Below are positions 9,875 to 15,496 of a stretch of 64,000 nt of DNA, piece after piece. The stretch is from positions 91,996 through 155,995 of the forward strand of contig CANJUR010000001.1 of NCBI GenBank assembly GCA_947477565.1. The letters are read 5' to 3'. Numbering within the stretch: the first letter of the stretch is position 1; every line of letters begins with the position of its first letter. The DNA comes from Deltaproteobacteria bacterium. GTDB taxonomy: Bacteria; Myxococcota_A; Polyangia; Polyangiales; Ga0077539. A program made the position numbers and the translations under genes. The notes beneath the pieces are model-generated. The model saw nothing but the letters and a program-made list of their open reading frames with translations, did not search any database and was not told the origin of the DNA.

Positions 9875-9938
9875 TTGACCCGCGAGACTCTTACCCCTAC
9901 GTAAGGGTTCGATCTCACTCCAACCCTTACGCATGGGT
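9875..9938 (+). promoter_or_regulatory. Promoter region of the isc operon with two tandem 16-bp dyads
   Basis: TTGACC at 9875-9880 is followed, after 17 bases, by TACGTA at 9898-9903, a plausible but weak -35/-10 pair. Two near-palindromes of the same design lie here: ACCCCTACGTAAGGGT at 9893-9908 and ACCCTTACGCATGGGT at 9923-9938. Their centres are exactly 30 bp apart. The inner arms, CGTAAGGGTT at 9900-9909 and AACCCTTACG at 9922-9931, also form a perfect 10-bp inverted repeat. The first dyad covers the proposed -10. Short GC-flanked dyads overlapping a core promoter are what MerR-family proteins bind, and a MerR gene starts 20 bases downstream, so autoregulation of the whole operon is likely (inference). 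Confidence 0.65.
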
Positions 9939-9957
9939 GAGGTTGTTTCGAGGCAGC

Positions 9958-10497
9958 ATGGCGATCCGGCTCCCCATCGTGAATCCTGAAGTCCTGGTTC
10001 CGCCTCCTCCTTTGCGGGGTGACGGCACGATGCTTCTGCGGGTCGGCGATCTGGCCCAGCGGACGCAGAAGACCGTTCGGGCGCTTCATCTCTATGAAGA
10101 ACTCGGGCTGCTCCAGCCGGTTGAGCGCAGCAAAGGTGGATTCCGTCTCTACAGCGATGATGCCGTACTGCGAGTGCGCTGGATCTCCCGGCTGCAAGAC
10201 CTCAGTTTCTCGCTTCCTGATATTCGAGAACTTGTGAGCGAGTGGGAGCGGTCGGGCAGCGCGACCGGCGCGATGGCGAAGATTCGCGAACTGTATCGAC
10301 AGAAGCTTTCGGATACCGAAGTTCAGTTAGAGCACTTGAAGCAGTTGCACGAGGAGTTGCGCTCGTCGGTGGCCTACCTCGAGACCTGCGACGAGTGTCA
10401 GCCCGAGCGCCTGATCACCTCCTGTCCGCAGTGCGATCTGCACGGCTGCGGAGCCCCGGATCTAGTAGCGGGCCTGCACGGCCCCCGACACGATTGA
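9958..10497 (+). CDS. MerR-family regulator with C-terminal cysteine cluster, heading the isc operon
   Basis: The protein is 179 residues. A MerR winged HTH starts near residue 25 (LRVGDLAQRTQKTVRALHLY), preceded by a proline-rich extension. A dimerisation coiled coil spans about 100-140. The C-terminus holds five cysteines (C144, C147, C156, C159, C164) spaced C-x2-C-x8-C-x2-C-x4-C, suited to binding an Fe-S cluster or metal. The start could instead be ATG 10030, which begins directly at the MerR domain and has a GGGGTGA before it. It is followed after 21 bases by iscS. By position it replaces the Rrf2-type IscR of proteobacteria, so it probably senses Fe-S or iron status and regulates the operon (inference). 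Confidence 0.85.
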   Translation: MAIRLPIVNPEVLVPPPPLRGDGTMLLRVGDLAQRTQKTVRALHLYEELGLLQPVERSKGGFRLYSDDAVLRVRWISRLQDLSFSLPDIRELVSEWERSGSATGAMAKIRELYRQKLSDTEVQLEHLKQLHEELRSSVAYLETCDECQPERLITSCPQCDLHGCGAPDLVAGLHGPRHD

Positions 10498-10518: not shown

Positions 10519-11748
10519 ATGTCCCTCAAGTTCCCGATTTACATGGACAATCACTCGACGAGCCCGATGGATCCGCGCGTGCTCGAGACCATGCTCCCGT
10601 ACTTCACGGAGCACTTCGGCAACGCGGCCTCGCGCTCGCACAAGTTTGGGTGGACCGCCGAGGAGGCCGTCAACTACGCCCGCGAGCAAGTGGCTACGCT
10701 GATCGGCGCCGATCGCCCGGAGGAGATCGTGTTCACTTCCGGGGCGAGCGAGAGCAACAACCTGGCGCTGAAGGGCGTGGCGGAATTCTATCGCGATAAG
10801 GGCAACCACATCATCACGACGAAGATTGAGCACAAGGCCGTGCTCGACACCTGTAAACGGCTGGAAAAGCAGGGCTTCGAGGTGACCTACCTCGATGTCG
10901 GCGTCGAAGGAATCGTCTCCCTGGACGACGTGCGCGCAGCCATGACTGACAAGACCATCCTGGTGTCGGTGATGCTGGCCAACAACGAAGTGGGCACTAT
11001 CCAGCCCATCGGCGCAATCGGGGCGCTCTGCAAGGAGCGCGGGGTGATCTTCCACACCGACGCGGTACAGGGCGTTGGCAAGACTGAGTTCAACGTGAAT
11101 GCCATGGGCGTCGATCTCGCGTCCATCACCGCGCACAAGATGTACGGCCCGAAGGGCGTCGGCGCCCTGTACGTTCGTCGGGCCCGTCCGCGGGTGCGGC
11201 TCACCGCGCAGATCGATGGCGGAGGACACGAGCGCGGCAACCGCTCTGGAACGCTCAACGTCCCGGGCATCGTGGGCTTCGGCAAGGCCTGCGAGATTCT
11301 CACGAAGGAGTGGCGGGACGAGGCCAGGTACGTCGCTTCGCAGCGCGATCGATTGAAGGAAAAGCTGTTTGCCGAGCTCGACGAGTGCCACATCAATGGC
11401 GCCTGGGGCGAAGGCCGACGACTGCCCAACAATCTCAACGTGTCGTTTTCCTACGTCGAGGGCGAAGGGCTGATGATGGCCATCAAGGACGTCGCGGTGT
11501 CTTCGGGTAGCGCCTGCACAAGTTCGTCGCTCGAGCCGTCGTATGTGCTGCGCGCGCTCGGCGTCGAGGAAGAGCTTGCGCACACGAGCATCCGCTTCGG
11601 TCTTGGTCGGTTTACCACCGAGGAGGAGGTCGATTTCGTCGCGCGGCTCGTGATCGACAAGGTCAAGAAGCTCCGCGATCTGTCGCCGCTCTACGAGATG
11701 GCCAAAGAGGGCGTAAACCTCAAGGATATCGTCTGGGCAGCGCACTGA
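10519..11748 (+). CDS. iscS: Cysteine desulfurase IscS
   Basis: IscS removes sulfur from L-cysteine with PLP and passes it as persulfide to IscU. The 409 residues match group I NifS/IscS length. Visible features are the N-terminal [12 protein letters not shown], the PLP lysine K207 in [11 protein letters not shown], the mobile-loop cysteine C333 in [14 protein letters not shown], and the C-terminal [20 protein letters not shown] tail, which is the IscU-docking end in characterised enzymes. A GGAGAG ribosome site precedes ATG 10519. It lies 21 bases after the MerR gene and 43 bases before iscU. Confidence 0.97.
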
Positions 11749-11791: not shown

Positions 11792-12187
11792 ATGGCATAC
11801 AGCGAAAAAGTCATCGAGCACGCGGAAAACCCGCGCAATGTCGGCACCCTGGACAAGGAAGACCCCAACGTGGGCACCGGGCTCGTGGGCGCGCCGGCGT
11901 GCGGCGACGTGATGCGACTGCAGATCAAGGTGAGCGACGCCGGGGTGATCGAGGACGCGAAGTTCAAGACCTTCGGCTGCGGATCGGCGATTGCCAGCTC
12001 GTCGCTCGCGACGGAGTGGCTGAAGGGTCGCACGCTCGAAGAAGCCGCGACGATTCGCAACACCGACATCGTGAAGGAACTCAACCTTCCGCCGGTCAAG
12101 ATCCATTGTTCGGTATTGGCCGAAGATGCGATCAAAAGCGCGATCGAGGACTTCCGCAAGAAGCAGTCGGCGAAGCGCAGCTCGTAG
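11792..12187 (+). CDS. iscU: Fe-S cluster scaffold IscU
   Basis: The 131-residue scaffold assembles [2Fe-2S]/[4Fe-4S] clusters with sulfur from IscS. All ligands are present: C37 and D39 in GAPACGDV, C63 in FGCGSA, and H105-C106 in KIHCSV. The HscA-recognition motif LPPVK is at 99-103, just before the third cysteine. This is the IscU type rather than SufU, matching the accompanying hscB and hscA. Confidence 0.97.
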   Translation: MAYSEKVIEHAENPRNVGTLDKEDPNVGTGLVGAPACGDVMRLQIKVSDAGVIEDAKFKTFGCGSAIASSSLATEWLKGRTLEEAATIRNTDIVKELNLPPVKIHCSVLAEDAIKSAIEDFRKKQSAKRSS

Positions 12188-12217: not shown

Positions 12218-12556
12218 ATGGCGACGGAGCTGGCGGTGCAGGTGACCCCGAAGGCAGTAGAGAAGGCCAAGGAGGCGCTCGTGAAGAGGGGCACCCCCGA
12301 GGGGTTGCTGCGGCTGGGGGTGCGCGGCGGCGGATGTTCGGGCTTCTCCTACGTGATTGAGTTTGCCGACAAGCAGGGCACCCGTGACCAGGTGTTCAAC
12401 TTCGATGGACTGCGCGTGGTGGTCGATCCGAAGTCACTGGTGTTTCTTAACGGAACGACACTCGATTACGAGGTGAAGCTCATGCAACACGGATTCAAGT
12501 TCGTGAATCCGCAAGAGGCCGCCGGCTGCGGCTGCGGCGAGAGCTTCGGGGTCTGA
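12218..12556 (+). CDS. iscA: A-type Fe-S carrier IscA
   Basis: The 112-residue A-type carrier accepts clusters from IscU or delivers them to apoproteins. The three ligands are C40 in RGGGCSGF and C104/C106 in AAGCGCGESF. The fold elements between them, such as VVVDPKSLVFLNGTTLDY, are typical. It starts 30 bases after iscU. A GAGGCGAGAG purine run precedes the start. Confidence 0.96.
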   Translation: MATELAVQVTPKAVEKAKEALVKRGTPEGLLRLGVRGGGCSGFSYVIEFADKQGTRDQVFNFDGLRVVVDPKSLVFLNGTTLDYEVKLMQHGFKFVNPQEAAGCGCGESFGV

Positions 12557-12617: not shown

Positions 12618-13130
12618 ATGACTGATCCCTTCGACCTTCTTGGCGTAGCGCGGCGCTTCTCCCTCGACCGCGCCGCGCTCGAGCAACGGCACCGAGACCT
12701 CTCCCGCACACTCCACCCTGACCGCTACGTGCAGGCCCCTCCCGGCGAGCGCCGGATGGCCCTCGATCGCGCCGTTGCGGTCAACGAAGCCTTCCGCGCC
12801 CTTCGCGATCCGCTCACCCGCGCCGAGGCTCTGCTCACCGCGCACGGTCTCTCCGTGGGTGACGCCGACCGCCCCTCGCAAGCGCTCCTGCTCGAGGTGA
12901 TGGATCTCCGCGAAGCTCTCGACGAGGGCCGCCGAACGCCCGCCAAAGTCACCGCGCTGCTCGAGCAGGTGCGCGCCCGCACAAAGTCCGAAGAGAATCT
13001 CCTCGCGGCGGTGTTCGACGGGGAAACCCCTCCGGACGCCGCGGCGCTGGCCCGCGCTCGTGACGCCCTCGTACGGTTGAAATACTTCCGTCGCTTCGAG
13101 GATGAAGCCGACGACGCGCTCGACTCCTGA
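12618..13130 (+). CDS. hscB: J-type co-chaperone HscB
   Basis: From ATG 12618 the protein is 170 residues. An ATG three codons upstream at 12609 is possible, and neither has a clear ribosome site. The N-terminal J domain has HPD at 33-35 in the context HRDLSRTLHPDRY. The C-terminal three-helix domain (about 75-165) binds IscU in characterised HscB. HscB delivers IscU to HscA and stimulates its ATPase. Its place between iscA and hscA is the classical order. Confidence 0.93.
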   Translation: MTDPFDLLGVARRFSLDRAALEQRHRDLSRTLHPDRYVQAPPGERRMALDRAVAVNEAFRALRDPLTRAEALLTAHGLSVGDADRPSQALLLEVMDLREALDEGRRTPAKVTALLEQVRARTKSEENLLAAVFDGETPPDAAALARARDALVRLKYFRRFEDEADDALDS

Positions 13131-13160: not shown

Positions 13161-15101
13161 ATGGCGCTCTTCCAGATCTTCGACCCTACCGCGCGACCGA
13201 CCCCGATCGGCATCGACCTCGGCACGACCCACTCGCTGGTGGCCTACACTGTCGATGGCCGCCCGGAGTGCGTGCTCGATTGCGACCTCAACCCGCTGCT
13301 CCCCAGCGTGGTTCATTACCTCCAACACGGCGGGGTGATGGTCGGTACCGAAGGGAAGGGAAAAGCCGCCCTGCACCCGCGCGAGACCCTTGTCTCCGTG
13401 AAGCGCTTCATGGGCCGCGGCGCCGACGATCCGGAGACGCGCAGGCTTGGTCCGTATGATTTTGCGATGCCCGAACCGGGGCAGTCCAACACGGTGCGCT
13501 TCAAGGTCCACGGACGAACGGTGACGCCGGTGGAGGTGTCCGCGGAGATTCTCCGGGCGCTGCGCACCCAGGCAGAAGGAAAGCTGCGCACCCTCGGCGG
13601 CGCGGTAATCACCGTCCCGGCGTACTTTGATGAAGCGCAACGGCAGGCCACCAAAGATGCCGCGAAGCTCGCGGGCGTGGAGGTGCTGCGGCTCCTCAAC
13701 GAGCCCACCGCCGCGGCCCTCGCCTATGGCCTCGACAAGGGACGCACCCGCGGAACCTTCGCCGTCTACGACCTCGGCGGCGGAACCTTCGACGTCACCA
13801 TCCTCTCCCTCGACGACGGCGTCTTCCAGGTGCGCTCCACCGGCGGCGACGCGCAGCTTGGCGGCGACGACATGGACCGTCTGCTCGCCGAGTGGGTCTT
13901 CGGACACCTGGAGATCGACTCTGCGCAGGCCGCGCCCGGCCTCGTTCGCGCGGTTCTCGACGCGGCGCGAACGGCCAAGCACGACCTCACCGATCGACCC
14001 GACACGGTGATCGCCGTCGACGTCGACGGGGTGACCTTCGAGCGCTCCATCCGGCGGACGGAGTTCGAGGACATCGTGCGGACCGTCATCGCGCGCACCA
14101 CCCCTGCGGTGAAGCGCGCCCTGCGCGATGCGGGACTGCGGCCTGACGAGATCGACGGTGTCATCCTGGTGGGCGGGAGCACGCGCGTCCCGGCGGTGCG
14201 CGAGCACGTACAGAGCCTCTTCGGGCAGGAGCCGCTCTCGGACATCGACCCCGATCAGGTGGTGGCCTTCGGCGCGGCGATTCAGGCCAACCTGCTGGCG
14301 GGCGACGGCGCGAAAGACGACGCGCTCATCCTCGATGTGATTCCGCTCTCCCTCGGCCTGGAGACCATGGGCGGCGTGGCGGAGAAGATTCTCCCTCGCA
14401 ACACCACGATTCCCGCGGGGCGCGCACAGCAGTTCACGACCTACGCCGACGGGCAGACGGGCTTCGAGGTGCACGTGGTGCAAGGCGAGCGCGAACTGGC
14501 TGCGGACAACCGCTCCCTCGCGAAGTTTACCCTACGGGGTATTCCGCTGATGCCCGCCGGGGCGGCGAAGTTGGAAGTGACCTTCCGCGTCGATGCCGAC
14601 GGGATGCTCACGGTGACCGCGCGCGAACTCAACACGGGCATTGAGCAGCACATTGAGGTGACGCCGTCCTTCGGGCTGACCGGCGACGACGTCGAGCGGA
14701 TGCTCCTGGAGTCCTATGAGCACGCGGAGTCCGACCTCGCAGTGCGGCAGTTGCGGGAGCGCATCACCGACGCAGAGCGGGTGATCGCGGCGACGGAGGC
14801 GGCGCTGCGGGTGGATGGCGACCTGCTCGACGAGGACGAGCGCGCGGAGCTTGACGGTGCCCTCAAGGCGCTGCGCGAGGCAATCGCGGCGCAGGACGGG
14901 AAGAAGGTTCATCTGCGGACGGAGGGGCTCGACCGCGCGACGCACCCGCTGGCCGAGCGACGGATGGATCGCGCGGTTCAGCACGCGATGCGCGGCCGCG
15001 CCGTGCAGGAAATCGAGGACACGGTGCGCGACCGGCCGGAGCACCCGCACCTCGCGGCCTCGTATGCGAAGGACATGGAGTCCGAGAAGGAGACCCGGTG
15101 A
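13161..15101 (+). CDS. hscA: Hsp70-type chaperone HscA for Fe-S cluster transfer
   Basis: The 646-residue protein is an Hsp70. The nucleotide-binding domain shows GIDLGTTHS near 14-22, the VKRFMGRG segment, [19 protein letters not shown] and the phosphate loop [12 protein letters not shown]. The substrate domain (about 390-520) and a helical lid follow. The DnaK-type acidic C-terminal EEVD-like tail is absent, as usual for HscA. HscA uses ATP to drive release of the cluster from IscU via the LPPVK motif. The stop overlaps the ferredoxin start as TGATG, so these are coupled. Confidence 0.95.
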
Positions 15102-15496
15102 TGGCGACGGTGCGGTTTCTAAACACGGATGACGGCGCGGTGGAGGTAGAGGTCCCGCTCGGGACGACGCTGCTCGAGGCCGCGCAGATGGCCCACGCCC
15201 CGGAGGGATCAGCCTGCGGCGGGGTGTGCGGCTGCTCGACGTGCCACGTGCACGTGAAGAAGGGCCTCCCCCTGCTCTCGGAGATTGAAGACGAGGAAAA
15301 CGACATCCTCGACAAGGCCTTTGACGTCGAGGCGAGTTCGCGCCTCGGCTGTCAGGCGAAGGTCGAGCGCGAGGGCCTCGTCGAGCTCTTCATCACCCGG
15401 GAATCTTACGAGACCTGGTATAACGAGCACCCTCAGGAGCGCCACGCCCGAGACGAGCGCATCAAGCTGACCGGCTCGCCGCGCAGCCGCCCGTAG
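15101..15496 (+). CDS. fdx: [2Fe-2S] ferredoxin of the ISC system
   Basis: The 131-residue ISC-type (adrenodoxin-like) ferredoxin has ligands C39, C45, C48 (C-x5-C-x2-C) and C84 in RLGCQAK. An extra cysteine at 43 is non-ligand in relatives. ISC ferredoxin supplies electrons for cluster assembly on IscU. The ATG at 15101 shares a base with the hscA stop; an in-frame GTG one codon earlier is possible. The roughly 20-residue C-terminal extension after the ferredoxin fold (ETWYNEHPQERHARD onward) is longer than in E. coli Fdx. It is the last gene of the operon; no iscX is present. Confidence 0.94.
   Translation: MATVRFLNTDDGAVEVEVPLGTTLLEAAQMAHAPEGSACGGVCGCSTCHVHVKKGLPLLSEIEDEENDILDKAFDVEASSRLGCQAKVEREGLVELFITRESYETWYNEHPQERHARDERIKLTGSPRSRP

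Follow-up and report, generated by a model that had tools for sequence, protein, structure and literature searches.

A MerR-Family Protein with Four Conserved Cysteines as a Candidate Repressor of the isc Operon in Myxococcota

The merR-isc Locus

The window, by which we mean the whole stretch of 64,000 nucleotides that was analyzed, encodes on its forward strand a MerR-type regulator of 179 amino acids (positions 9958–10497). The gene stands directly 5′ of iscS-iscU-iscA-hscB-hscA-fdx and is the first gene of this operon. The genes that follow on the same strand were assigned with profile models: iscS (10519–11748; NF010611, 651 bits), iscU (11792–12187; TIGR01999), an iscA-type gene for an A-type carrier (12218–12556; TIGR00049), hscB (12618–13130; TIGR00714), and hscA (13161–15101; TIGR01991, 800.7 bits) all score above the respective cut-offs. 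The last gene, fdx (15101–15496), codes for a [2Fe-2S] ferredoxin that exceeds the cut-off of Pfam Fer2; its best NCBIfam match, TIGR02007, lies below its own cut-off. Since merR and iscS are separated by 21 bp, co-transcription of the two genes is likely.

The regulator was recognized from its translation and its MerR domain matches, and it has orthologues. An alternative start codon, ATG at 10030, corresponds to residue M25. Pfam MerR_1 matches the protein with E 2e-13, and both PF13411 and PF00376 exceed their cut-offs, which places it in the MerR superfamily with its N-terminal winged helix-turn-helix and long dimerization helix. Matches in Pfam and NCBIfam are to MerR models only. AlphaFold2, run with a 70-row alignment, predicts a confident MerR fold (pLDDT 91) in a model that by its nature cannot reveal a bound metal. 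The predicted dimerization helix spans residues 102–144 and is followed by a short helix (153–158) and a tail helix (168–174). The tail carries a conserved P-x-[LM]-[VI] motif (P167–A171, 10456–10470, + strand), in which the proline is found in 61/70, L or M in 70/70, and V or I in 68/70 of the relatives. The best matches among solved folds, CadR, NmlR, PbrR, and SoxR, are all MerR proteins and are tied within 1 at Z scores of 10–11; zinc- or cadmium-bound CadR is among the closest of them.

Four Conserved Cysteines

An earlier note on this DNA had drawn attention to a cluster of five cysteines near the C-terminus. Their positions are correct: C144 (10387–10389), C147 (10396–10398), C156 (10423–10425), C159 (10432–10434), and C164 (10447–10449) form the pattern C-x2-C-x8-C-x2-C-x4-C, and C144 is the last residue of the predicted dimerization helix. 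The alignment of orthologues that the same note had proposed was made with 70 relatives, mostly only 34–62% identical to the window protein and drawn from 90 MerR genes standing before an IscS-like gene. It bears out the first four cysteines (CX2C-X8-CX2C, 10387–10434, + strand), with C144, C147, and C159 present in 70/70 and C156 in 69/70 proteins. It does not bear out the fifth: C164 is lineage-specific, with cysteine at this position in 10 of the 70 relatives and histidine in 28. Five invariant cysteines are thus ruled out, and the five-cysteine cluster does not hold as the conserved unit.

Some variation surrounds the conserved residues. The first pair reads C-x2-C or C-x3-C, and the loop between the pairs mostly has 8 residues with a range from 7 to 12, giving the family motif C-x2/3-C-x7..12-C-x2-C. 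Exactly four cysteines occur within the aligned part of 40/70 proteins, and histidine is common at positions 162 and 164, just after the second cysteine pair. Judged from this conservation, the cysteine pattern is no chance occurrence; on the same grounds, the conserved unit comprises four cysteines, to which C164 has been added locally.

A further MerR clade, paralogous to the first, has similarly arranged cysteines (CX2C-X7/8-CX2C) and a conserved "...LW" tail, and is encoded in many of the genomes that have the isc-linked protein (L137–L149, L152). Genes of this clade lie close to folE, which codes for GTP cyclohydrolase I, in 8/14 loci (for example L207:7476–8027, − strand, and L208:5023–5574, + strand), once with a DUF2203 gene in between. 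A second MerR paralogue (family f32; L119, L127, L128, L130–L132, L135, L239) is often followed by a sigma-factor-like gene, and the paralogue at L239 is preceded by the same operator as isc (see below).

Distribution and Absence of IscR

A protein search over 284 Myxococcota genomes gave a match in 151 of them. We retrieved about 110 loci and inspected the genes 3′ of each merR. A total of 90 MerR genes directly precede an IscS-like gene, including 4 on contigs labeled Latescibacterota or Gemmatimonas, in which iscA comes before iscS. Among the 284 genomes searched, 74 contain HscA above cut-off, and 72 of these also contain the isc-linked MerR (Fisher p about 7e-52, a statistic that ignores shared ancestry). 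The two HscA genomes with no visible MerR (G193 and G152) carry HscA within 1.8 kb of a contig end, and for this reason the upstream part is out of view. Conversely, 12 genomes contain MerR together with an HscA that is below cut-off or fragmented.

In a maximum-likelihood tree of a subset, the isc-linked sequences from Myxococcota fall on one side of a single branch (support 91/85). This clade spans many Myxococcota families, and the order of sequences in the tree follows the bacterial families, as would be expected of vertical inheritance. The Latescibacterota contigs carry a related operon, merR-iscA-iscS-ThiF/rhodanese (L037:5136–8410; also L038, L040, and L043), in which the MerR protein has CX2C-X8-CX2C.

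None of the 284 Myxococcota genomes encodes an IscR above cut-off. The genome to which the window belongs (6.65 Mb, 93% complete) was searched for IscR elsewhere and no match was found, neither to the IscR-like model TIGR02010 nor to the Rrf2 domain PF02082. SUF proteins, as represented by the SufB/SufD domain (PF01458), were likewise not detected in this 93% complete genome, and ISC is therefore the only Fe–S assembly pathway visible there. Together with the position at the head of isc in one clade and an operator found almost only at isc, these absences lend good genomic support to the suggestion in the earlier note that the MerR protein takes the place of IscR.

We also inspected five loci from sister lineages where the isc operon occurs without MerR. 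One of them (L244, family f20) encodes an Rrf2-like protein, a call read from the sequence rather than scored with a model, some 130–580 bp before iscS. Others among these five loci show no clear regulator before iscS. At L241 and L242, GAC-N7-GTC-like repeats upstream of iscS resemble the RisR site of M. xanthus. The position ahead of iscS seems to have been taken by regulators of different families, depending on the lineage.

Operator and Promoter

Upstream of merR we find a conserved 22-bp dyad, ACYCTNACGNNNNCGTNAGRGT, with the consensus ACYCTNACG-N4-CGTNAGRGT. The dyad reaches a score of at least 13 in 80/89 isc-merR promoters compared to 0.45% of shuffled promoters, an effect size that is somewhat inflated by the fact that the consensus was built from the same promoters. 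About ten promoters, mostly from distant relatives, have no recognizable operator, and the merR-iscA-iscS loci of Latescibacterota contain no recognizable copy either. Operators of the CueR, ZntR, and CadR type are also 22-bp dyads with ACYCT/AGRGT-like ends.

A comparison of six close relatives reveals an invariant block upstream of merR with differing flanks. The best sigma70 match on the + strand is the −35 hexamer TTGACC (9875–9880), which occurs as CTTGACC at a fixed distance in all six relatives, followed after 17 bp by the candidate −10 hexamer TACGTA (9898–9903). Operator site 1, ACTCTTACCCCTACGTAAGGGT (9887–9908, + strand), overlaps this hexamer and is the sole place in the 6.65-Mb genome that matches the family dyad with at most one mismatch. 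Operator site 2, ACCCTTACGCATGGGTGAGGTT (9923–9944), lies in the opposite orientation downstream of the promoter and is conserved in the six close relatives. Its core (9923–9938) deviates at two positions from the 16-bp palindrome ACCCTNACGTNAGGGT, which was the first operator model and has been superseded by the 22-bp dyad that fits more promoters.

The layout of these promoters was examined in 67 cases by pairing the closest TTGAC 5′ of the operator with the best −10 element without any spacing penalty. A 17-bp spacer is the mode (38.7/67 promoters versus 5.6 in shuffles), and a 19-bp spacer shows no enrichment (4.5 versus 4.5 in shuffles). In 55/67 promoters the operator starts 19 to 47 nt after the −35 element. 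For example, the sequence TTGACG-N17-TATAAC runs directly into ACTCTTACG. The operators of family f34 begin within the final bases of TATAAC. A few promoters, that of the window with its site 1 among them, have an operator that covers the spacer and the −10 element; site 2 of the window lies downstream. Known MerR activators require a dyad inside a promoter spacer of 19–20 bp. The isc-linked promoters differ on both counts, with spacers that are mostly 17 bp long and operators that lie mostly downstream of the −10 element. Read from sequence, an operator over or just 3′ of a sigma70 promoter would suit a repressor, unlike the layout of a MerR activator.

Target Sites in Other Genomes

A scan of 84 MerR-bearing genomes with at most one mismatch to the dyad returned sites almost only at isc-merR promoters. 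Nine sites lie elsewhere, a number close to the seven that the reversed pattern gave as a control. Four of these nine fall within coding sequence and appear to be random matches. The remaining five are intergenic and precede the gene of an A-type Fe–S carrier (L203), three cysteine synthase operons from family f34 with adjoining JAB-domain and/or ThiS-type genes (L201, L202, and L234), and the merR paralogue at L239. These five targets fit Fe–S and sulfur supply, in so far as such a small number can. No zinc transporter or zinc gene is found among the extra sites in the 84 genomes. A wider regulon in the genome of the window was considered and rejected, as no further site above background was detected there.

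Comparison with Known Regulators

The protein resembles E. coli IscR in that both are encoded by the first isc gene, both have conserved cysteines, and both are part of an autoregulated feedback on isc, predicted in the present case. The two are nevertheless different proteins: IscR belongs to the Rrf2 family, has three cysteines and a histidine, and recognizes another operator, whereas the isc-linked protein is a MerR protein with four cysteines, and neither PF02082 nor TIGR02010 is found in it. In the same phylum, the Rrf2 protein RisR (group IS6) from Myxococcus xanthus represses isc in its holo-form by covering the −10 element and the start site (PMC9973013). RisR is encoded in the suf operon, controls both isc and suf, and binds T(t/g)GAC-N7-GTCC(t/a) (PMC9973013). 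The layout of RisR at isc is the layout that we predict for the MerR protein. In contrast to this suf-encoded Rrf2 regulator, the window belongs to a genome in which neither Rrf2 nor SUF proteins were detected. Conversely, M. xanthus uses RisR, and no MerR protein has been described at its isc operon (PMC9973013). With its gene at the head of isc and a conserved operator at that promoter, the MerR protein stands beside IscR and RisR at the level of genome organization.

Among MerR proteins, the [2Fe-2S] sensor SoxR shares the fold (Z 10.1) and the location of four cysteines just past the dimerization helix. In the structural model, the cysteines of the isc-linked protein occupy the region that bears the ligands in SoxR and the metal sensors, with a different spacing. 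The C-x2-C-x-C-x5-C spacing of SoxR is indeed absent, as the earlier note had remarked; the window protein has CX2C-X8-CX2C, and its relatives show small changes in loop length. A score of 43.7 bits against a TIGR01950 cut-off of 116.9, together with this spacing, rules out an orthologue of SoxR, and the repressor-like 17-bp promoter is not of the activator type. CueR, ZntR, and CadR/PbrR are similar in fold and helix-turn-helix. The isc-linked protein scores far below the cut-offs of their models (62 vs 147, 61 vs 168, and 55 vs 151 bits, respectively), and their cysteine arrangements and target genes are unlike those of the isc-linked protein. By these curated equivalog cut-offs and by spacing, an orthologue of CueR, ZntR, CadR/PbrR, or MerR is also ruled out.

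Proposed Mechanism and Alternatives

We propose that a MerR dimer binds the 22-bp inverted repeat lying over or immediately 3′ of the −10 element of an ordinary promoter with a 17-bp spacer, and that the bound protein would block transcription of isc, including its own gene. The four cysteines just past the dimerization helix may hold a cofactor, most likely an Fe–S cluster, which the ISC machinery would itself supply. With clusters in ample supply, the loaded protein would repress isc; under scarcity, as during iron shortage or exposure to oxidants, the cluster would be lost and isc derepressed. An unrelated protein would thus do the job of holo-IscR or RisR. We favor a holo-repressor with an Fe–S cluster on two grounds, the analogy to IscR and RisR and the nature of the target, which is the operon for cluster assembly. 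The parts of this proposal differ in strength. The protein is very probably a dedicated isc regulator acting at the 22-bp dyad, and it quite probably acts by repression. The full statement, a dedicated and autoregulated isc repressor gated by an Fe–S cluster on four cysteines, is in our analysis somewhat better than an even bet.

The main rival to an Fe–S cluster is zinc or thiol sensing. Zinc on the four cysteines, either structural or as a zinc/thiol redox switch, would leave operator and target unchanged; loss of zinc or oxidation of the cysteines would alter DNA binding, and isc would answer to oxidants or metal stress instead of cluster supply. The spacing of the cysteines matches no Fe–S motif that we can name and would suit zinc equally. 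CX2C...CX2C pairs are common zinc sites, the frequent histidines at 162 and 164 after the second pair could serve the same reading, and CadR with zinc or cadmium is among the closest solved folds. The paralogous clade with similar cysteines adjoins folE, which encodes an enzyme type that uses zinc, the GTP cyclohydrolase I here being of the zinc-dependent type, and zinc therefore stays in play. We nevertheless judge this explanation rather unlikely: the operator is nearly restricted to isc, its extra sites include no zinc-related gene, the family cut-offs of ZntR, CueR, and CadR are not reached, and a feedback on isc would be served more directly by a cluster.

Another explanation holds that the thiols sense sulfur supply in the form of cysteine, sulfide, or persulfide rather than iron or clusters, and thereby link isc to cysteine synthesis. 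The operator copies before cysteine synthase in three genomes, with their JAB and/or ThiS-type neighbors, and the Latescibacterota relative, whose gene comes first in an operon encoding IscS and a ThiF-rhodanese protein, are consistent with such a role. This explanation appears improbable, as operators before cysteine synthase occur in a single family only, the remaining sites are at isc, a carrier gene, and a merR paralogue, and two CxxC pairs with four cysteines look more like a set of ligands than like a lone thiol switch. A classic activator of the MerR/SoxR type, which would bind in either form and, when loaded or oxidized, untwist the promoter to turn isc on, would be in keeping with the MerR fold and its neighbors SoxR, CadR, and CueR, with cysteines placed after the dimerization helix as in SoxR, and with site 1 overlapping the spacer and −10 element, but the spacer scan gives no support to a 19-bp activator promoter and most operators lie downstream of the −10 region, which makes this last alternative very doubtful.

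Returning to the cluster-gated repressor, a broader version of the proposal is that an ancient MerR branch became a cluster-sensing isc repressor in much of Myxococcota, with a diverged form in Latescibacterota. It would carry an Fe–S cluster on a new CX2C-X8-CX2C set, act by ordinary promoter blocking without the long-spacer twist, and represent a third family after Rrf2 and the ArsR-like SufR. We advance this version more tentatively and would give it slightly less than an even chance.

Conclusions

Control of Fe–S assembly has so far been described almost wholly in terms of the Rrf2 proteins IscR and RisR and of the ArsR-like SufR. In the open-licence literature that we searched, we found no published description of isc or suf being regulated by a MerR protein, nor any experimental study of a member of the present family. 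What appears to be new is a MerR protein in the role of IscR, with a ligand motif and an operator of its own. In an entire bacterial lineage, the sole Fe–S assembly pathway in view appears to be under the control of this protein. The family, its 22-bp operator, and the short list of targets are sufficiently defined to be tested directly. If the proposal is true, the MerR family would gain a new metal-binding motif as well as a promoter layout of the repressor type. If confirmed, it would reveal a separately evolved control of iron–sulfur cluster supply in a large group of myxobacteria-like bacteria.
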